Shown: one piece after another, positions 4,727-53,740 of the stretch
Layout: every line of letters starts with the position of its first letter
Position numbering within the stretch: the first letter of the stretch is position 1
Source of the DNA: Aureococcus anophagefferens
Taxonomy: Eukaryota; Sar; Pelagophyceae; Pelagomonadales; Pelagomonadaceae
Length of the DNA stretch: 64,000 bases
Assembly (NCBI RefSeq): GCF_000186865.1
Contig: NW_008705562.1
Coordinates: 1,685,335 to 1,749,334 of the forward strand
Reading direction: 5' to 3'
Position numbers and translations under genes: made by a program
Notes under the pieces: model-generated
Databases searched by the model: none
Told to the model about the DNA's origin: nothing
Seen by the model: the letters and a program-made list of their open reading frames with translations, nothing else

Positions 4727-4891
4727 CGTTCGGGGGTTTTGAGACGGCGTCGCGCGTCGACAACAAGGCTACAACTTGTGACATCAAGAGGTCAACAGAT
4801 GGTCAACGCCGGCTTGGACCAGCCTTGGTGCCGCATGCGTTGTTTATGGGCTCGACCTCCTGACATGGCGCGCGGCGCGCACTAGCACCGC

Positions 4892-6549
4892 ATGAACGTG
4901 CAGCTCGTCACGGGCAACCCGGCCCTCGGCGAGGGCGCCCTGCACCTCGGCGTGGCCCGGCTGACGAGCGCGCCCGCGCGCACGACAGGACAGGGCGGCG
5001 CGGCGAGCGTGAGCGCCGGCGCCGGCGCCGAGCCGCCGGCGCACCACCTGCGGCGGCGGACGCTGGCCATGGTCGGCGTGCCCGCGCGGTTCGTGCCGAG
5101 CGACGTCATGCAGCTGCTCGGGCCCTTCAAGGGGCTGCGGAACATGCGCGTCGCGCGCCACGGCGAGCCGCCGCGATGGCCGCCGACGCTCGCGGTCGTG
5201 CTGCTCGAGCTGTCGTCGGTCTTCGAGGCGGCGGCGGTCTACGGCGCGCTCCACGGGCGGCCGTTCAACAGCTTCGAGCCCGAGGTCGTGCGCCTCGCGT
5301 TCGTCGACCGCGTCGACTGGGTCGGCGCGGCGCCGCGGCGCGAGACCGACGCGAGCACGTGCGTCGTGTGCCTCGAGCCCCTGCGGTCGCGGGGCCCCAT
5401 CTTCACGACGGCCTGCGACCACAGCTTCCACAGCGCGTGCCTCGGGCGCTGGGCCGACGCGCCGTGCCCCGTGTGCCGCTTCCATCCGTCGGGCGTCGGC
5501 GCGGCGACGTGCTGCGTCGCGTGCGGCCTCGAGCAGGACAAGGGTGATTCAACGTCGCTTCAACGTGAGTGTTCCGCGCGCGCGCGTTCTAGAAAAAGCA
5601 TCCACGCTTCGAGAGCGCTCCGAGAGATGATCGCTCGTCCAAAAATCAGCCGAAACGAGCGGAAAACGACCGAGATAGAAGCCTTTGAAGTTGGGAATTT
5701 CGCACCCTTTTGCTGCCCAGGTGCGGCCTCGAGCCGTCCGGCGGCGGCGCCGGCGCCGAGGACATGCTCGACCGGCGCACGCTCTGGGTGTGCCTGATCT
5801 GCGGCCACGCGGGCTGCGGCGGCGGCGACGCGACGGAGCCGGGCCACGCGCGGGACCACTACCGCGCGACGCTCCACGCCTACGCGCTCGACGTCGCGTC
5901 GCAGCACGTCTGGGACTTCGCGGGCGAGGGCTACGTGCACCGCCTCGCGCTCCAGCGCGGCGGCGAGGACCGGGAGCCCGCGTCGCCGACCGGCGGCAAG
6001 ATCGCGGAGGTCGCGCCGCCGCCGCCGCCGGACCGCTCCGGCCGCGGCCGCGCGAGCTCGTTGGGCCGCGTCGCGGCGCTCCACGCGCGGTCCTGCGCGC
6101 CGCCCTTCGAGCCCGCGGCGGCCGACGACTCCGAGCGCGTGCACCGGAAGTTGGAGGGCCTCGCGCTCGAGTACAACGAGCTCCTGCGGTCGCAGCTCGC
6201 GCGCCAGCGCGACATCTACGAGGCACGGCTGCTCGCCGCGGCCCACGACGAGCCGCGCGGCGACGGCGACGACGGCCTCGCGGCGCTCGCGCGCGAGCGC
6301 CGGGGGGCGGACGCGCGCGTCGCCAAGGCGCGGCGCGCGCTCGCCAAGGCCGGCGACGACGTATCCTTCGTCGCGGAGCTCAACGCGACGCTCGAGGCCG
6401 ACGCGGGCCGCTGGGACGCCGAGGAGGCCGCGGCCGCCGCGGACCTCGCGCGCGCGCGCGACGCCGCCGCGCGCCTCGCGCGGCCCCTCGAGGACAAGCT
6501 CGCCGCCGCCTACCGCATGCTCGACGACGACCCCGGGGGAGCGCCCTAA
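4892..6549 (+). CDS. BRAP2-like RING and ZnF-UBP ubiquitin ligase
   Basis: Relative of BRCA1-associated protein 2 (BRAP/IMP), an E3 ligase that modulates Ras-MAPK signalling in animals. Exons are 4892-5520 and 5721-6549 (485 residues). Parts in order: an RRM-like BRAP2 domain (RRTLAMVGVPARFVPSDVMQ, about 55-140); an H2-type RING at about 155-197 (CVVCLEPL, CDHSFHSAC, CPVC); a ZnF-UBP domain (CVACGLE, LWVCLICGHAGCG, then HYRATLHAYALD) that binds free ubiquitin tails; and a long Ala/Arg/Glu coiled coil to the end. The 200-nt intron is an introner insertion. Splicing from GT at 5521 to CAG at 5718-5720 restores ...CCVACGLEPSGGG in frame and keeps the zinc ligands together. Reading through the element would destroy the ZnF-UBP domain. 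Confidence 0.9.
5529..5720 (+). mobile_element. Introner element, family 1, copy 1 (sense orientation in BRAP2-like gene)
   Basis: 192-bp element forming, with the upstream target duplication, a 200-nt intron. The 8-bp duplication GTGCGGCC is at 5521-5528 and 5721-5728. The first copy gives the GT donor and the element's right terminus (TTTTGCTGCCCAG) gives the acceptor. The interior is nearly identical to copies at 23479, 50180 and 52451. The left terminus is degenerate here (TCGAGCAGGACAAGGG rather than CTGGGCAGCAAAAGGG), and the flanking match extends to 14 bp (GTGCGGCCTCGAGC). No coding capacity, so presumably mobilised in trans. Confidence 0.93.
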
Positions 6550-22281: not shown

Positions 22282-24642
22282 CTAGGGGTACTCCCGGCCG
22301 AAGCAGGCGAGGATCGTCGGGAGGATCCAGGCCTCGAGCTGGTCGATCCAGCCCTGGTGCGCGATCGCGAAGACGAGGCCGCCGATCCACGTCGCCACGA
22401 GCACGTACTGCGCCGGCTGCGGGAGCTGGAGGTTGTTCGCCGCGAGGACGCCGCAGTAGACGACCAGAACGGCGAAGAGGAAGAGGATCTGGACCATGAC
22501 GCCCGTGTCCGCCATAGTCGCGTAGGGCTTGCCGTAGATGAGCGGGTAGAGCGTCCAGGGCACGCCGAGGGCGATGACGATGTTGAAGACGTTGGACCCC
22601 AGGGCGTTGGACACGGCCATGGCGCCGAAGCCCTGCTTCGCGACGACCATGGACGCGACGAGATTCGGCAGCGACGTGCCGACGGCGCCGAGCGTGAGGC
22701 CGACGACGGCCGACGGGATCTTCAGGATCTCGCCGAGGTGCTCGCAGCAGAAGACCATGACGTAGGACAGCGCCGCCAGCCAGAAGATGGACGACCCGAT
22801 GGCGCCGCCGACGGAGCCGCCCTCGCGGACGTCCGGGATCGAGTGCTTGAACGCGGCCTTGAGCGGCAGGAGGCCGACGTGGGCGACCACCGCGACGCCG
22901 TAGGACCCCTTGGCGTATAAAGACGCGTCGGCCGCCGGCGCGTGGGGCCAGGCCGTGAGGTCCTCGACGTCCTCGTCGTCCTCCTTCTCGAGCGCCTCCT
23001 CGACCAGCGTCGCGCGCTGCTCCTCCGCGCCCGGCAGCGGGTGCTCCGACGCCCGCTCGAGGCCGCCCTTCATGGCGTTGGCCTTGGCCGCCTCGATGAG
23101 CAGCGAGATCTTGAAGACGCAGTCCTTCATGATGCGGCTCGACGGCGCGAGGTATTCCAGATCGCCGAACGGGTGGTCGGGCCGCTCGACGCGGAACCGG
23201 AGCCGCTTCTCGTCGACGACGACGCAGGCCGTCGCCAGCTCCAGGTTGAAGACGCGGAGCCCGCTCTCGGAGTCGCTCAGCGCCTCCGACGCGTCGCGCC
23301 GGCTCTTGAGGGGCGCCGCGGCGCCCTCGGCGAGGTCGAGCTCCCACCACCGGAGCTGCCACGCGCGCGAGCTCGACCGCACGGCCGTGTAGAAGCGGCT
23401 CATGCGCCACAAATAGCACCCGTAGAGGTGCGCGCCGTCGCTCTTGGGCGTCCGGAGCTCCGCGACGTCGCCGGGCACCTGGGCAGCAAAAGGGTGATTC
23501 AACGTCGCTTCAACGTGAGTGTTTCGCGCGCGCGCGTTCCGAAAAAAGCATCCGCGCTTCGAGACCGTTCCGAGAGATGATCGCTCGTCCAAAAATCAGC
23601 CGAAACGAGTGGAAAACGGCCGAGATCAGAGCCTTTGAAGTTGGGAATTTCGCTCTCTTTTGCTGCCCTGCCGGGCACGGCCTCCTCCTTCTGCGTCGGC
23701 CCGCGGAAGCTCAGGCGCCGCTCCGACATGCGCCGCACGGACATGCGCGTCTCGCTGAGCTGCTTGGACGCGATGGCGACGGAGTCGTCGCCCCGGGGCA
23801 CGACGGACGGCCGCTCCGCGTCGTCCGCGGCCGCCGCCGGCAGGTCCGCGACGGCGTCCGCGGCCTCGGGCGCCGCGGGGGGCGCCTCCTCGTCGGGCGG
23901 CGGCGCCATGGGGTTCGCCGCCGGCTCGCCGACGCTCGACGTCATCTCCGCCGACATGGGCCGCGCCGTGGCCTCGCCGCCCGCGAGCTTCTCCGCCGCG
24001 CGCTTCGGGAACGTCGCCGCGCCGTGGAGCGTCAGCAGCTTCCCGACGACCTTCTCGAGGCCCCCGGCGCAGACCCAGACGTAGGCGCCGTAGCAGGCCA
24101 GGAGCGGCAGGCACTGGGCCGTGTGGACGACGATGATGGGCTCCGTGACCCCCTCGTCGTCGTGCTCGAGCTCGACCGTGCGGATCTGCACGTCCGACGC
24201 CGCGTAGGCCAGGAGGAAGAGGCTCAGGGCGTAGAAGCCGCACTCGCGGAGCGTCGACCCGAGCTCGAGCTGGAGGGGCTTGCCGCCGGCCGTGCAGCGG
24301 ATGGACCCCGCGGCGATGACCATGTGGTTGAAGAGCTCGCTGCCGATGATCGTGCCGACGCCGAGCTCGCTGTGCGTGATGAAGATGGCGATCATGTTCC
24401 TGCGAGCGCGGGGCGGGGGCGTCGCGCGGCGCGTTTCTTTGGCGACGGTCCACGCACCCGAAGAGCTCGGGGCTGCTGGCGCCGGCAGCCATGAGCGTCG
24501 CTCCGGCGACGGCGGGAGGGATGCCGGCGATGGCGCAAAACGCGTTGAGCGACGGCACGAACTTCTCCTCCGTGACGAGCGCGAGGGCCCAGAACATGAT
24601 GCCCGCGCCGATGATGTAGACGACGAGCAGGAGGGCCTCCAT
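22282..24642 (-). CDS. K+-dependent Na+/Ca2+ exchanger (NCKX-type, CaCA superfamily)
   Basis: Exons on the minus strand are 24642-24458, 24399-23679 and 23478-22282, giving 700 residues. The two alpha repeats are complete: FVPSLNAFCAI, GATLMAAGASSPELF and VGTIIGSELFNHMVIAAG, then AVVGLTLGAVGTSLPNLVAS and AMAVSNALGSNVFNIVIALG. This pattern marks NCKX exchangers, which extrude Ca2+ with K+ using Na+. Between them is a long cytosolic loop with Ser/Arg clusters (MSVRRMSERRLSFRG), suggesting kinase control. It also carries a PH-like stretch (DGAHLYGCYLWRMSRFYTAV, WQLRWWELDL). Intron 1 is 58 nt. Intron 2 is introner copy 2 in antisense and joins QKEEA to VPGDVAEL in phase 0. The start is the first ATG before the first helix; the cleavable leader of animal NCKX is missing or further upstream. 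Confidence 0.88.
23479..23670 (+). mobile_element. Introner element, family 1, copy 2 (antisense in exchanger gene)
   Basis: 192 bp with intact terminal inverted repeats: CTGGGCAGCAAAAG on the left and CTTTTGCTGCCCTG on the right. The 8-bp target duplication CCGGGCAC is at 23471-23478 and 23671-23678. On the gene (minus) strand the duplication reads GTGCCCGG and gives the donor, and the element's other end gives TGCCCAG as acceptor, for a 200-nt intron. About 95% identical to copy 3 by eye. Confidence 0.95.
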
Positions 24643-42482: not shown

Positions 42483-45400
42483 ATGGCGCCGAAGTCGCGG
42501 CGGCGCTCGGAGCTGGACCGCGGCGAATGGGTCTTCGTCGAGGACGCCGCCGAGGCCTGGGTGCTGGGCAAGGTCGAGGCCCGGAGCGCGGGCGACGTCA
42601 CGGTCCTCGTCGGCGGCGAGCGCAAGGTCATCAAGCTGCGGAAGGACGGCGGCAACGTCGCGGACTCGGGCACGAGCCTCAACGAGGACATCGAGAACCT
42701 CGTGGACCTCGACTCGTTTACCGAGGGCAGCATCCTGCACCACGTGCGTAAGCGGTTCCAGGGCGACCTGATCTACACGCTGGTCGGCAGCATCCTCGTC
42801 GCCGTGAACCCGTTCAAGCGCCTGCCCATCTACACGCCCGAGCTCATGGACAGCTACCGCGCGCGCGCGAGCGGCGGCGACCCGCCGCCGCCGCACGTGT
42901 TCCTCACGGCCGCGCGGTGCTACGACGCCATGGTCGACACGAAGCAGTCGCAGTCCGTCCTCATCTCGGGCGAGTCCGGTGCGGGCAAGACGGAGACGAC
43001 GAAGTTCGTCCTGGCCTTCGTCGCGCGCGTCGCGGGCCGCGGCGGCGGCGCGGGCGCGGGCAAGTCCGTCGAGGAGCAGATCCTCCAGAGCAACCCCGTG
43101 CTCGAGGCCTACGGCAACGCCAAGACCCTGCGGAACAACAACTCGAGCCGCTTCGGCACGTGGCGGCGTCCCGCGGCCGCGACGATGTTCGAGAGATTTC
43201 GGGCGGGAAACCGACGAACCGTCGTCACCGTCGCGCTCGGTAGGCAAGTGGATGAAAATAGAATTCGAGGGCAACTCCAAGATCCGCGGCTGCAGCATCA
43301 CGAACTACCTCCTCGAGAAGTCGCGCGTCGTCTGGCAGTCCAAGGGCGAGCGGTCCTACCACGCCTTCTACCAGCTCTTCAAGGGCGCGAAGGAGCGCGA
43401 GGCCTACGGCATCGGCGCGGACCCCGAGGCCTTCGCCACGCTCACGAAGGGCGGCTGCACGACCGTCGACGCCATCGACGACGCGCAGGAGTGGGACGAC
43501 CAGCGCGCGGCGCTCGACATCCTCGACTTCTCCAAGGACGACCAGCGCGTCGCGCTCGGCGTCGTCGCCGCGACGCTCCACCTCGGCCTCGCGGCCTTCA
43601 GCGCCGACGGCGACGGCTCGCGCGTGAGCGACGCGGCGTGCCTCGCCAAGGCCGCGCCGCTGCTCGGCGTCGACGCGGGCAAGCTCGCGGCCGCGTTGAC
43701 GACGCGGACGGAGCAGATGGGCCGCGGGTCCATGGTGACCATCAAGCTGAGCCCGCCGGCGGCCAAGGACGCCGCCGACGCCCTGGCGAAGGCGCTCTAC
43801 GGCCGCCTCTTCGATTGGCTGGTCGTCAAGATCAACGCGTCGATCTCGCGCGGCGAGGGCGCGTGCCACGTCGGCGTGCTCGACATCTTCGGCTTCGAGG
43901 TCTTCAAAGTCAACTCCTTCGAGCAGCTCTGCATCAATTATACCAATGAGAAGCTCCAGCTCTTCTTCAACGACGTCGTCTTCGGCGAGGAGATGAAGAT
44001 GTACGAGTCCGAGGGCGTGCCGCACACGCACATGGCCTTCGAGGACAACGCGAGGTGCGTCGCGCTGCTCGACGGCAAGCCCGTGAACCTGCTCTCCCTG
44101 CTCGACGACGAGTGCTCCGGCGGCGCGTCGGCGAAGGACGCCAAGTACGGCTCCAAGGCCATCAACACGTTCGCGCAGGGCCCGCACAAGAACGCGTACT
44201 TTGGGGGCAAGGACCCGTCGGGCCGGTCCTTCGCCGTGCGCCACTTCGCCGGCGCCGTGACCTACGACACGGCGGGCTTCGTCGAGAAGAACCGCGACAC
44301 GATCTCGACGACGCTCTCGACGCTCTGCATGGAGGCCGCGGTGCCGCTCGTCGCGCGGTTCTTCGCGGAGCCCCCCGCCGCGTCGCCCGCGTCGCCCGCG
44401 TCGCCCGGCGGCGGCCGCAAGAAGAAGAAGGGCGCCAAGACCCTGGGCGCCGCCTTCCGCGCCCAGCTCCACGGCCTCATGGACGCCCTCAAGGCCACGC
44501 AGCCCCACTTCGTGCGCTGCGTCAAGTCGAACCCGGGCAAGAAGCGGCGTCCCGCGGCCGCGACGATGTTCGAGAGATTCGGGGTGGGAAAACAAGGAGA
44601 AATCGTCACCCCTTGGTAGGCAAGAAGCCCGACGTCTTCGACGGCGCCCTCTGCCTCCAGCAGCTCAAGTACAGCGGCCTCTTCGAGGCCATCAAGATCC
44701 GCAAGGCCGGCTACGCCTACCGCGTGCCCCACGCGGTCTTTGCGAAGCGCTACGCGCTCACGGCGCCCAGGGGCGGCTTCGACCTCGTCCGCAAGCACGG
44801 CAAGAACCTGCCCGCGGACGTGGCCCTGACCTGCTGCGAGAACATCCTCAACGACCCGGCGAACCTCGCCGCGCTGCTCGCGGCCGACGGCGCCAAGGAC
44901 GCGGCCGCGGTCATGGCCGTCGGCAAGACGCGCGTCTTCCTCAAGGACGCGCTCGCGCAGAAGGCCCTGGAGACGCGGCGCGCCCGGGCCATGGAGTCCT
45001 TCGTCGTGCTCTGCCAGGCCGCGTGGCGCTCCTTCGCCGCGCGGTCCAAGGCCGGCGGCGGTCTGGCGGAGTCGCGGCGCAAGGCGAAGCGCGACGCGCT
45101 GCGGAAGCAGCGGGCCAAGGCCGCCGGCGACCTCGTGACGCGCTGGATCCGCGGCGCCCGCGTGCGCCGGAGCCTCGCCGGCGCGCGCAAGAACCTCGCG
45201 GGCCTCCGCGCGGCGGCGAAGCGCACCGCGGGCGCCGCGGTCGACGACTACGGCGCGCTGCGGGACCTCGACGACGCGCTGCGGCCCTTCCTCGAGGCCC
45301 AGACGGGCCCCGACGGCGCGCCGCGCGCGGATCTGGGGAAATGCTTCGCCGGGCCGCCCAAGGCCGGCGAGCCGAGCGCGCACCTGCTCGCGCACTTACC

Positions 45401-48345: not shown

Positions 48346-51300
48346 TTAGACCGCGGGCCCCGGGTAGTTGTCGCCGAGGTCCTCGTCGTGCTCGGCGTCC
48401 GGCGGCGGCTCCTTGCGGTCCTCCGTCGTCGTCGCCACGGTCAGCGTCGGGTCGTTGTTGGCCGCGCGGCGGAAGAGGATCGACGACCGCGCGCGGCTCA
48501 GCGCGGTGGCCTGCTTGCCCACGTAGGGGCTCGCGACGGCCTTGTCCTCGTCCTTGTCGTGCCAGGGCAGCACGGGCTCGAGCGTGCCCTGGAGGAGCGC
48601 GGGCTGGCGGAAGTACTCCGTCGTGAACGCGTCGCACGTCGGCTCGTCGCCGCTCGCCGCGTCGTAGGCCTCGTCGGCCGCGATGGCGCTCTCGAGCGCC
48701 AGGTTCTGGTTCATGTGGCCGAAGCCCACCTGGAAGAAGATCCAGGCGATGAGGGTCGCGAGGAGCGGGCCCGTCGACGCGAGCGCGTGGTAGTACGCCT
48801 TCGACACGAGCAGGTAGAACGTGAACGTGAGGCAGCCGCTGAAGAGCGACCCGATGAGCGAGTAGATGATGATCTCGAAGAAGGCGCCGCCGGCCTCGTA
48901 GTAGGGCACGTAGACGTACAGGAACTGGCGCGTGTAGACAAAGTAGGCGCAGTAGAAGAAGACGAGAGCAAAGGGGTAGACGATGGGCGCGATGCCCGCG
49001 AAGACGAACGCGTAGGTGAGCACCATGAGCTTGCTCGGGTACTGGAAGCCGTAGCGGAACTCCGGCGGCTCGAAGGCGCCCTTGGTCAGGTCCCGGTCCG
49101 TGAGCCGGTCCTTGAAGGACCGCCGCACGAACTCGATCCTAAACCAGGGCCAGAGCCGCGAGATCTCGAACGGCAGCACGAGCATGAGCTTCATGATGAT
49201 CATCTCCACGAAGTAGACCGCGGCCTGGGGCATGATGAGCGCGATGTACTCGAGCACGGTCACGGGCTCCTCGGCGAGCAGCTCCAGCAGCGTCCAGATC
49301 GTGCCCGACACGAGCGCGAGCCAGATGTTCGCGAGCTCGAACATGAGGTAGCGCCGGAACACGGTCTGCTGCACCTCGGACGTGAACTTGAAGCGCTCGT
49401 AGTACTTGCCGATGAACATGAGGATGAACGGCAGAATACACAAAATCAGATTCACGAGCAGGATGGGCGCGTAGGCCTGCATGAGCTCGTAGCAGTAGCT
49501 CAGCCAGTAGTTCGTCGTGTTGTTGTCCCAGAAGATGCAGACGTTCGACACCTTCTCGCAGAGCTCCATGACCATGGACCAGTTCAGCGCCGCGCAGGCG
49601 AGGGCCAGGGACATGATGTTGTGGCGCACGAGCCGCTCCGTCTTCGACGACGTCACGTTCGCCCAGATCACGTTCCGCGGCTCCGGCCGGTGGTCCGCGG
49701 CCTCCATGCAGAAGGGCCGCGGCGACAGCTGGGCCTGCCTCGCGATGGCCGCGGACCGCAGGCTCCGGAAGGTCACGAAGCCCGTGCCGCCCTTGGTGCC
49801 GAGCCGCGGCTTCTCCGACCGGAGGCTGAAGGCGCGGCGCCGCGCGCGGCCGAGGCGCCCCAGGCCCTGGACCTTGCCGCCCGCGCCGACGCGCACGCCC
49901 CCCAAATCGCCGCCGAGCACGCCCCGCGAGCTCACGAAGCTCGCCGACGCCGCGCCGTGGTCCACGCCGTCGAGCTCGAGGTCGTCGTCGTCCGACCGGA
50001 GCGTGTTCGACGACGAGTGCGTCGCGCCGGCGCCCAGGAGGCTCTCGCCCTCGCGCCCCGCCGCCGCGGGCTCCGCCGCCGCCGCCGCGGCGTCGCCGGC
50101 GGCGACCGTGACCTCGTAGATGACGTCCGCGCCCACGGCCGCGGCGACGATCTGCGCGTTGCCCGCCTCCTCGCCGTACCTGGGCAGCAAAAGGGTGATT
50201 CAACGTCGCTTCAACGTGAGTGTTCCGCGCGCGCGCGTTCCGGAAAAAGCATCCACGCTTCGAGACCGTTCCGAGAGATGATCGCTCGTCCAAAAATCAG
50301 CCGAAACGAGTGGAAAACGGCCGAGATATGAGCCTTTGAAGTTGGGAATGTCGCTCTCTTTTGCTGCCCTGCGCCGTACGCGTCGAGCCGGTCGTCGTTG
50401 GCCAACAGCGCCTCGCGGTCCGTCGTCACGACGAGCGCGGCCTCGTCCTCGATCTTCTGCTCCGCGAGGTAGAGGCGCTTCAGCAACTCCGTGCGCTTCG
50501 CGTTGAGCTGGCTCAGCACCGCCGTGTAGAACGGGATCGCCTCGACGCGCGCGCCCGCGCCGCGCGCCGCGGCCGCGCAGTTCTCGTCGACGTGCCACTC
50601 CGTGGGCTCGTCGCCCGTCGTCTCCCGCTCGAGCAGGAGGTGCTCGAGCTGGGACACGACCGTCTCCTGCGCGCCGAGCAGCGCCTCGAGGTCTTCGAGG
50701 TCGACGAGGCTCACGACCGCGGACGCGACCTCGCCGGGGAAGAGGTGGTCGAAGTAGGCCTTGAGCGCCACGTCCGCGCGGCACTCCGAGGGGATGCGCT
50801 CGATCATCACGGAGAACGTCGACTGGAGCTGGCCGTGCTCGCCGATGTTCGCGCCCTCGGCGGCCTTCTCCGCCGTCGTCATGAACGCCTGGCGCAGCCG
50901 CACGAAGGCCTTGCACTCGGCGAAGAGCTCGTAGAGCGCGTGGGCGACGATGAGGTAGACGCCGACGACGGGCGCCCAGAGCCGCCCGGAGCGGTGCACG
51001 ACGTTGCCGATCGTCCACGAGTAGAACGTGTCGCTCAGCGCGCCGCCCTCGTGCGGCGTCGTCGCGAAGACGACGAGGAGCACGACGCCGATGCAGGACC
51101 CGAAGGCCGTCATGCGGATGCCCATGCGCATGAACCTAATGAAGACGAAGGCCTCGAGCCCCACGAGCTCGACCATCTCGTCGTCGGGGATCGCCTTCAG
51201 CGGCGCGAGCCACGCGCCAAAGCCCGGGTACTGGCTGTCGAGCACCTTGCCCGGGCAGTAGCGCGCCCGGGGCCAGAACGACGTGCGCCGGTGGCGCTGG

Positions 51301-51437
51301 AGCTCGAAGACGGCCAGCATGAAGACGCAGGGCACGGCGCTGCAGGCGGCGACGACCCAGACCTCGTACCAGCCCAGCGTCGACACCCAGGACCGCGCGG
51401 ACAAGTCCGACGACTCCATGGACTTGTAGCCGACCAT
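48346..51437 (-). CDS. OSCA/TMEM63 (CSC1-like) mechano/osmosensitive cation channel
   Basis: 963 residues from exons 51437-50380 and 50179-48346. The start is the ATG at 51437 (MVGYKSMESSDLSARSW), since upstream in-frame codons are GTG. Layout: N-terminal RSN1-like membrane segment (WYEVWVVAACSAVPCVFMLA; VGVYLIVAHALYELFAEC); cytosolic domain with STFSVMIERIPSECRAD; the family hallmark GFVTFRSLRSAAIARQAQLS and PEPRNVIWANVTSSKTERLV; then a multi-helix pore domain (ILLVNLILCILPFILMFIGK, YEAGGAFFEIIIYSLIGSLF). OSCA/TMEM63 proteins open on membrane tension or hyperosmolality and pass Ca2+ and other cations. Introner copy 3 splits the cytosolic domain in phase 2 and joins DRLDA to YGEEAGNAQ. Confidence 0.92.
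50180..50371 (+). mobile_element. Introner element, family 1, copy 3 (antisense in OSCA gene)
   Basis: 192 bp with termini CTGGGCAGCAAAAG and CTTTTGCTGCCCTG. The perfect 8-bp duplication CGCCGTAC is at 50172-50179 and 50372-50379; on the gene strand it reads GTACGGCG and provides the GT donor. The 200-nt intron ends TGCCCAG. This is the cleanest copy for defining element length and target-site size. Confidence 0.96.
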
Positions 51438-51662: not shown

Positions 51663-53544
51663 CTAGAGCTCCTTCTGGAACTCCTCGAAGCGCTCCTTGC
51701 GCGTCTCGTGGACGTCGTCGGAGAACTGCATCTCCTCGGGCAGGTCCTGGATCCAGGTGCGGCCCTCGATGGCCTTGGCGTGCATGATGTCGAAGTCCTT
51801 GAACTGGGCGTTCTCCTCGTCCTTCTTCTTGCGATCCTCCTTCTTCGCCTCCTGCTGGACCTCCGCGACGATCTTCATGAGCATCTCCGACGTGAGCTCG
51901 TAGGGGTCGTGCTTCTTCACCGGGATGCGCTTCGGCCGGACGCACTGCGGGGGCGCGCGAATCGCGGCGGATCGCGGCGGCGCGCGCGCGGCGCGCGGCG
52001 GCCGCGCGTTCGGACGCGGCGAGACGGACGAAGTGCGTCTGCTGCGCGCAGAAGTCGTTGACCGCCGGCGGCACGGAGCTCGGGTTGAGCTTGATGTTCT
52101 CCGCGGGCTTCTGCTTGTACGTGAGCGTGTTGATGATCTCCGTCTCGTACTCGTCGAGGAGCTCCTCGCAGACCTCGGATACGACGGCGTTGTCGCCGAT
52201 GCGGCTCTTGACGGGGAAGCCGCAGAGGTCGTTCTGGACGAGCTCCTCGACCTCCTCGCGGTCCCGCGGGTAGTCGCCGCGCGGGTACGCGAGGATGCCG
52301 TCGGTGAGTAGGATGATGGAGTTGCAGGCCTCGCACTTGTTGAAGGAGTGGCCGCTCACGAGGCCGCAGGCCTCGGCGGCCATGCCGCAGACCGCGTCGC
52401 GGTGCTGGGGGATGAGGTCCGGCGCGGTCTCGACGATCTTCTTGAGCGACCTGGGCGGGAAATGAGAGATTCAACGTCGCTTCAACGTGAGTGCTCCGCG
52501 CGCGCGCGTTCCGAAAAAAAGCATCCACGCTTCGAGGCCGTTCCAAGAGATGATCGCTCGTCCAAAAATCAGCCGAAACGAGTGGAAACCGGCCGAGAGA
52601 GGAGCCTTTGAAGGTGGGAATGTCGCTCTCGTTTCCCGCCCCGCGAGCGACGGCTGGCCGTCCCACGCGTGCGCCGTCTCCGGCGCGCCGTGCATGGCGT
52701 GCTGGATGTACTTGTAGCCGTGGATCAACGCCTCCTGGAAGGTGCGGTTGTTGACGATGAGGTTGCAGGCGAAGTCGACGTCGCTGCCGACGATCGCGGA
52801 CGTGCCGAACGTCGTCGCGCGCATCGACATGACGCGGTCGCACGTGTAGTCGAACTCGAACTCGGCCTCGATCTTGTCGCCGTAGGCCTTCCAGGCCCGC
52901 GTCGTCTTGTTCGCGCTCTTGGGCGGCGGCGGCGGCTTCTGCTTGAAGTAGGACCAGAGCTCGCGCGACGCGCCGTCGCCCTTGTAGACCTCGTCGAAGA
53001 TGGCGTTGCACGCGAGGCAGTGGTAGGGGTAGGTCTCGAGCCAGTTGCGGAGCTCGTTGTTCTGGATGGCGTCGAACAAATCGTAGCGCGCCTGGTCCTC
53101 GAGCTTGACCTGCATGGCCTCCCTGCCGATGTCGTAGCCGCCCTTGAGCGGCTGCACGGACCGCCACCGGCCGATGCGCGTCTTCTTCAGCGTGATGTCG
53201 ACGCCGTCGTCGCGCTTCTCGAAGGTCGACCACTTGATGACGATGCGGTTCCGCAGGGGCAGCTCGAGGTGGTAGCCCTCCTCGTTGTTGAACGCGAAGA
53301 CCTCGAGCGTCTGCGTGTCGAAGAAGACCTCGACCTCGTCCATGGGCTTCTGGATGCCCGTCTCCCCGAAGAGGCTCTCGTCGTCGCCCTTCTTCTTCCC
53401 GAGCTTCGGGCTCCAGTAGACGTTGAGGTAGAGCTTCGCGTTGTCCTCGCTCCAGAGGAACGACGGCCGGTGCACGGGCCGGTCGTCCGCGGCGGCGCGC
53501 CGGGCGACGAGAAACACCGCCAGGCTCATCGCGCAAAAGGCCAT
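51663..53544 (-). CDS. ER/secreted protein with saposin-B/canopy-like Cys domain
   Basis: 531 residues from exons 53544-52652, 52450-52030 and 51944-51663. A signal peptide (MAFCAMSLAVFLVARRAAAD) precedes a beta-rich lumenal domain (LYLNVYWSPKLG, VFFDTQTLEVFAFNNEEGYH, RIVIKWSTFEKR). A CLAC pair sits near residue 175. The middle resembles a saposin-like/canopy module: KCEACNSIILLTDG, LVQNDLCGFPV, SEVCEELLDEYETEI, then DFCAQQTHFC. The C terminus is a charged helix (IVAEVQQEAKKEDRKKKDEE). Canopy proteins are ER chaperone partners; the match is by Cys spacing only. Intron 1 is introner copy 4 (201 nt), joining GQP to SLKKIVE; intron 2 is 85 nt. It shares a 197-bp divergent promoter region with the aminotransferase gene. 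Confidence 0.68.
52451..52643 (+). mobile_element. Introner element, family 1, copy 4 (antisense; variant termini)
   Basis: 193 bp. The interior matches the other copies, but both termini differ in a matched way: CTGGGCGGGAAATGAG left and CTCGTTTCCCGCCCCG right, so the inverted repeat is preserved with new sequence. The 8-bp duplication TGAGCGAC/CGAGCGAC (52443-52450, 52644-52651) has one mismatch at its outer base. The gene-strand donor is GTCGCTCG and the acceptor CGCCCAG. Confidence 0.94.
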
Positions 53545-53740
53545 GGCGCGGCGCGGGGCGCGGTCGACGCCGCGGGGCGGGGGCGCGGGCTCCGGGCCGA
53601 CCGACCGGCGCCGCTCGAGAGAAACGCCGCGTGGCTGAGCTCCTTCGGGGCTGCCCGCGCCGCCGCAAACTCGGAAGATGGGGGGGAAACTTAGAAAGGT
53701 TGAAACGTTGAACTTTGGGGCCGCCCCGACCCGAGCCAAG

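Follow-up and report, generated by a model that had tools for sequence, protein, structure and literature searches.

A 192-bp introner of Aureococcus anophagefferens predicted to carry its 3' splice site and to borrow the 5' splice site from a duplicated target

In the 64,000-nucleotide stretch of Aureococcus anophagefferens DNA analysed here (the window), we find four copies of an element that is, with a probability of about 95%, an introner, namely a 192-bp non-autonomous DNA transposon of the MITE type which carries the acceptor of its intron and borrows the donor, splicing being predicted from the sequence. The copies, their repeats and duplications, the G-Y/AG borders and the restoration of the reading frame are read directly in the DNA. 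In the mechanism we propose, a transposase supplied from elsewhere would bind the 14-bp terminal repeats, and insertion by an 8-bp staggered cut, as the duplications suggest, would duplicate the target. One of the terminal repeats, read outward, would pass for a complete 3' splice site, with a pyrimidine tract followed by CAG. When the element has inserted in sense and the target starts with G-Y, the spliceosome would then cut out 200 nt, the first target copy together with the element, and so recover the coding sequence as it stood before insertion, while insertions that cannot be spliced would presumably be lost by selection.

The window copies and the features around them are listed in Table 1. 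The sequence-only reading of this DNA had drawn attention to copy 3 and placed it at 50172-50379, an interval that covers exactly the element and both target copies. GT...AG borders on the gene strand are present in all four copies, which gives predicted introns 200-201 nt long. Copies 1-3 have a perfect 8-bp duplication, and the two target copies at copy 4 match at seven of eight positions. The same reading described four near-identical copies of 192-193 bp, of which the positions and sizes hold and the word near-identical is slightly generous, BLAST identity to copy 3 being 97% for copy 2, 93% for copy 1 and 91% for copy 4. If target and element were retained, copies 2 and 3 would have stop codons in every frame and copies 1 and 4 in all frames but one. 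Copy 1 has an altered donor-side end, where TCGAG replaces CAGGG (window 5521-5545 against 5721-5740); TCGAG matches the exon bases after the downstream target copy, so that the direct repeat exceeds 8 bp there, and a patch of gene conversion is a possible origin.

Table 1. Introner copies and associated features in the window (strand is that of the gene)
Feature	Position	Strand	Remarks
Introner copy 1	5529..5720	+	BRAP2-type gene; target GTGCGGCC at 5521-5528 and 5721-5728; donor-side end altered
Introner copy 2	23479..23670	-	Na/Ca exchanger gene; target GTGCCCGG at 23471-23478 and 23671-23678
Introner copy 3	50180..50371	-	192 bp; gene-strand ends CAGGGCAGCAAAAG ... CTTTTGCTGCCCAG
Introner copy 4	52451..52643	-	193 bp; ends CGGGGCGGGAAACG / CTGGGCGGGAAATG; target copies GTCGCTCG / GTCGCTCA at 52443-52450 and 52644-52651
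Copy 3, upstream target copy (gene strand)	50372..50379	-	GTACGGCG; GT is the predicted 5' splice site
Copy 3, downstream target copy (gene strand)	50172..50179	-	GTACGGCG; first exon bases past AG
Copy 3, donor-side terminal repeat	50358..50371	-	CAGGGCAGCAAAAG
Copy 3, acceptor-side terminal repeat	50180..50193	-	CTTTTGCTGCCCAG; on the gene strand a pyrimidine-rich tract and CAG, the predicted 3' splice site
Coding segment upstream of copy 3	50373..51437	-	Predicted; RSN1_TM; PHM7_cyt profile positions 2-118
Coding segment downstream of copy 3	48364..50178	-	Predicted; RSN1_7TM; PHM7_cyt profile positions 121-174, under the curated cut-off
Coding segment flanking copy 1	4886-5542		Predicted
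Coding segment flanking copy 1	5725-6531		Predicted
Coding segment flanking copy 2	22288-23472		Predicted
Coding segment flanking copy 2	23676-24398		Predicted
Coding segment flanking copy 4	51964-52449		Predicted
Coding segment flanking copy 4	52642-53619		Predicted

The host genes are indeed unrelated, as had been claimed, and encode a BRAP2-type RING/UBP protein, a Na/Ca exchanger, an RSN1/OSCA-type channel and one protein without Pfam match. The coding segments were called from codon usage only, with the element coordinates withheld from the caller, and at all four copies no called end lies more than 22 bp from the predicted border of the intron. The junction of copy 1 is crossed gap-free by a 98%-identical protein (P0001), and that of copy 3 by three of five related proteins (P0049, P0050 and the more distant P0051); the other two (P0048 and P0052) have a gap directly past the junction, which probably reflects the choice of gene model. 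One spliced host protein of the window matches JL722_4829 of A. anophagefferens with 100% identity along 89% of its length, which points to this brown-tide pelagophyte or a very close strain as the source. The statement that the window holds no transposase agrees with Pfam, by which no transposase domain is found in the 40 segments searched of 41 predicted coding segments, 13 of these 40 being without any family match. A myosin gene in the window has two gaps of 70 and 44 bases (43194-43263 and 44575-44618) between predicted coding segments that follow each other almost without a break in the profile, and these are probably other short introns.

Genome-wide occurrence, also proposed from the window alone, is confirmed by a search of 49.05 Mb in 86 contigs. 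With at most two mismatches allowed, a 27-base core gives 1,981 matches and its control none. The mean density is then near one copy per 25 kb, and four copies in 64 kb are thus only modestly above average. The stricter pattern of two exact 14-bp ends (CWGGGCAGCAAAAG) at a spacing of 150-178 bp gives 275 copies, against none for the reversed-pattern control. Similar predicted introns are thus seen to recur in unrelated genes of one genome. We read 90 distinct copies out of the 275 (the exact-end sample), together with a core sample of 40 contig-1 regions among the first 100 core matches listed of the 1,981, which omits places already in the exact-end list and a few further places on contig 1; BLAST gives 43 matches in these 40 regions, 41 of them full length. 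A sequence pattern requiring the AG end yields 135 rows over all loci, 38 from the core sample and 97 others, and misses three of the 41 core-sample copies, whose duplications are perfect and begin with GC. In one region (L142, G000:C1:2490278-2491249) there are two introner copies with cores 245 bp apart and a very short stretch between them.

On the whole, the 8-bp duplication, for which a genome-wide check had been suggested, is present with at most one mismatch in 123 of the 135 rows (12 dropped), the first sense dinucleotide of the target being GC in 69, GT in 53 and CG in one. It is perfect in 73 of the 90 exact-end copies, with one mismatch in nine and two to six in eight, and perfect in 35 of the 41 full-length core-sample copies, with one mismatch in three and more in three. 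The upstream dinucleotide is GT in 45, GC in 43 and CC in two of all 90 exact-end copies; for those with at most one mismatch it is GC in 42 and GT in 40, that is GY in 82 of 82 against a flank background of 0.20 (P about 1e-57). In the core sample we count GC 26, GT 11 and CG 1 at up to one mismatch (n = 38), and GC 28, GT 12 and CG 1 for all 41. Beyond G-Y the donor has no detectable preference, a point added here: donor positions 3-6 do not depart significantly from background (P 0.10-0.63). At the exon base before the donor, G is in excess and A and T are depleted (P 0.005). One locus, L126 (G000:C1:858742-859468), has a non-GY target, CGCGCACC, duplicated without mismatch, and a weak coding signal on the opposite strand; it may be a non-intron insertion in antisense direction.

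The flanking reading frames were then assigned with a codon-usage model, which calls both flanks confidently in 98 of the 135 rows, all 98 on the sense strand. Removal of target and element leaves a single frame in 97 of the 98 (27 of 27 in the core sample and 70 of 71 among the others), one copy, at L094, being out of register after excision. As controls, strand and frame are kept at 514 of 550 testable contiguous random points and in 16 of 537 testable random 200-bp excisions. Calls from one flank only are sense in 114 of 115 cases upstream and 115 of 116 downstream. If the insert were retained, an in-frame stop would be read in 30 of 36 copies and none in the other six. The mechanism that had been read at copy 3, with its ends, 8-bp duplication, borrowed donor, carried acceptor and restored frame, is found there and also in nearly all other copies read, the splicing step itself being predicted.

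The 14-bp terminal inverted repeats vary in sequence, with CNGGGCRGSAMAAG and rarer forms. In each of the 41 full-length core-sample copies a CTGGG end occurs once only; it is the acceptor and reads ...CCCAG on the gene strand. The opposite end is usually CAGGG, the less common forms being CGGGG, CCGGG and AAGGG. Read outward, the 14-bp end gives a pyrimidine-rich tract and CAG, a plausible 3' splice site, so that either end could probably serve. The interior is in fact placed in both directions relative to the splice sites, in 27 and 63 of the 90 exact-end copies; interiors with GCATCC take the two directions in 13 and 73 copies, and those with ACAGCACC in 19 versus 1. A tree of the 135 interiors needs 12 switches of splicing direction, of which well-supported branches force only one, and it is likely that switching did occur.

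The two ends of a copy co-vary. In 39 rows, with kinship uncorrected, they match at 442 of 468 comparisons over positions 3-14, where the best of 2,000 shuffles reaches 432, and at 109 of 156 over positions 15-18, where the shuffled mean is 110. Several causes could give such a pattern: a transposase requiring that the ends match, the copying of one end onto the other, the presence of subfamilies, or an RNA stem that brings donor and acceptor together. The predicted RNA fold of copy 3 has a 12-bp stem formed of both ends, with a stability no better than that of shuffles (z -0.66); one copy with the opposite interior direction folds more stably than shuffles (z -3.51), and no Rfam family is found at copy 3. 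A rule that the donor-side end is never CT, since CT would pair in an RNA stem with the AG of the acceptor, was considered and rejected: exact ends are mixed CA/CT in all 275 copies, variant ends give 7 CT/CT against 265 CG-or-CC/CT, and the A-to-T share of 4% inside the element predicts about these seven (P 0.14).

An autonomous partner with the same terminal repeat, which had been expected from the window, or its transposase, was not found in the genome by weak searches in which the ends were examined among about 100 listed of 854. Such a putative partner would carry CAGGGCRGSAMAAG ends. The hAT dimerisation domain (PF05699) has no match in this genome nor in the control genomes, so that this search has no positive control, and the profile of the KDZ transposase (PF18758), also run without one, has none either. 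Ends with a base other than G at position 18 (3 and 27 places, the latter near the control of 16) form no inverted pair within 10 kb. One 5.2-kb candidate among the roughly 100 ends (C1:3395630-3400855) was rejected, since each of its two ends is part of a different introner copy. Carriage by viruses is not supported: the 12 single matches to the 18-base end pattern in viral contigs are about what chance gives by a hand estimate, and the 27-base core has no exact match in viral contigs. There are two places with a largely common interior unlike that of the introner, the only ones found with it, namely L112:249-750 (G000:C32), of 502 bp, with CAGGG at both ends, an 8-bp duplication (CGCGCGAC) and no AG at the ends, and L039:377-855 (G000:C1), of 479 bp, with CAGGG at both ends and no 8-bp duplication seen. 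We read them as siblings and not as the partner, being too short for an ordinary autonomous transposon. The 502-bp sibling, with its duplication and without an AG end, suggests that CAGGG may be the older end and that a change of A to T at position 2 may have made the acceptor.

Several other explanations have to be weighed against the introner. Multiplication of the introns through RNA, by reverse splicing into further transcripts, reverse transcription and then recombination, without any DNA transposition, would be in accordance with nearly all copies being sense in coding exons, as insertion into mRNA would give; nevertheless we hold it to be very improbable, since the first eight intron bases vary by copy and equal the first eight bases of the next exon (perfectly in 73 of 90 and 35 of 41), which points to a duplicated target and not to a copied intron end, and since terminal inverted repeats exist and co-vary around an interior that lies in both directions relative to splicing. 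It is scarcely credible that we are dealing with an ordinary MITE family which sits unspliced in genes and whose GY/AG borders arise by coincidence from its ends and target. The six of 36 copies without an in-frame stop on retention would suit such a family, but the GY start of 122 of the 123 near-perfect targets, the continuous frame after excision and the stops in the other 30 copies would not.

The same transposition might also take place with the G-Y start of the target as the transposase's own preference, and not as a result of selection by splicing. The near invariance of GY, with other targets almost missing in a genome that is partly non-coding, speaks for this explanation, which we nonetheless judge to be unlikely. 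A symmetrical transposase should give a mirror preference at the other end of the target, whereas no GY-like rule is present at that end in the 82-copy exact-end subset, which favours selection by splicing over the taste of a transposase. Besides, the GY rule is unchanged in the 27 of 90 copies with swapped interior, and GT is retained 2.8 times over GC after background correction in the 123 near-perfect targets, as a splice-site preference would give.

For the introner selected by splicing, which remains our reading, the placement in the genome needs a further remark, also added here: copies outside sense-strand exons appear to be nearly absent. A rough survival model, with random insertion, non-coding insertions neutral, only sense GY insertions tolerated in exons, and about 82% coding by an approximate caller, expects about 55% non-GY targets, against one observed in 123 near-perfect duplications. 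Survival alone would then fail to explain the placement, and some step may direct the element to transcribed exons. Exon targeting, for example by a transposase following open or transcribed coding chromatin, or otherwise strong selection against non-coding copies, is put forward tentatively, as an idea we regard as somewhat doubtful. On this idea the 14-bp end would serve two purposes, as the site for the transposase and as an entire 3' splice site, in a dual-use module.

Among known systems, the nearest is in the same species: Huff et al., in Nature in 2016, reportedly found that introners of A. anophagefferens carry one splice site per element. Micromonas pusilla, a GC-rich alga, also has introners, that is elements making introns, in an unrelated host lineage, the likeness being one of description. 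MITEs of the hAT superfamily have 8-bp duplications and CAGGG-type (CA-G) ends, both in common with the present element. The hAT target bias nTnnnnAn, with A at position 7, is absent here, position 7 being mostly C or G (A in 14 of 82) and position 2 being confounded by splicing.

The introner mechanism is not new, as it has already been published for A. anophagefferens (Huff et al. 2016), and our elements are probably the same, being likened by description. The sequence-only reading, which took introners as established for Aureococcus, is thus confirmed in its observation and supported in its interpretation, a correct and well-read case of a phenomenon already known in its species. The points added here, namely the lack of a detectable donor preference beyond G-Y, the co-variation of the ends and the near absence of copies outside sense exons, may go beyond that account. 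Constant-length direct repeats and terminal inverted repeats are ascribed to the introners of this species in a passage of PMC7789003, and DNA transposition, both orientations and co-opted splice sites in a passage of PMC10228655. According to the relevant part of Gozashti et al. 2022 (PMC9860276), family 4 introners of an Aureococcus sp. likewise have an 8-bp target duplication; unlike the present element, which carries the acceptor only and should add nothing, they carry both splice sites and add 12 bp to the transcript. Figure 2B of the same source describes an introner of Symbiodinium microadriaticum that likewise has a carried 3' splice site, terminal inverted repeats and a 5' site from the target duplication, but in a different organism and with a target duplication of 4 bp, so that it too is likened by description.

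The borrowing of donors from GC-rich targets would explain the abundant GC-AG introns of A. anophagefferens, which a passage of PMC3033335 gives as 39.6%, with 22.2% in M. pusilla, and calls "not easily explained". Since GC 5' splice sites reaching 50% in some introner families are mentioned in part of PMC9860276, the link to GC-AG introns is not wholly new.

Overall, introners bear on the long-standing question of how a genome can gain thousands of introns at one time. The approximately 2,000 similar insertions in this genome amount to a clean natural experiment, in which the first two bases of an insertion show what the spliceosome will accept.
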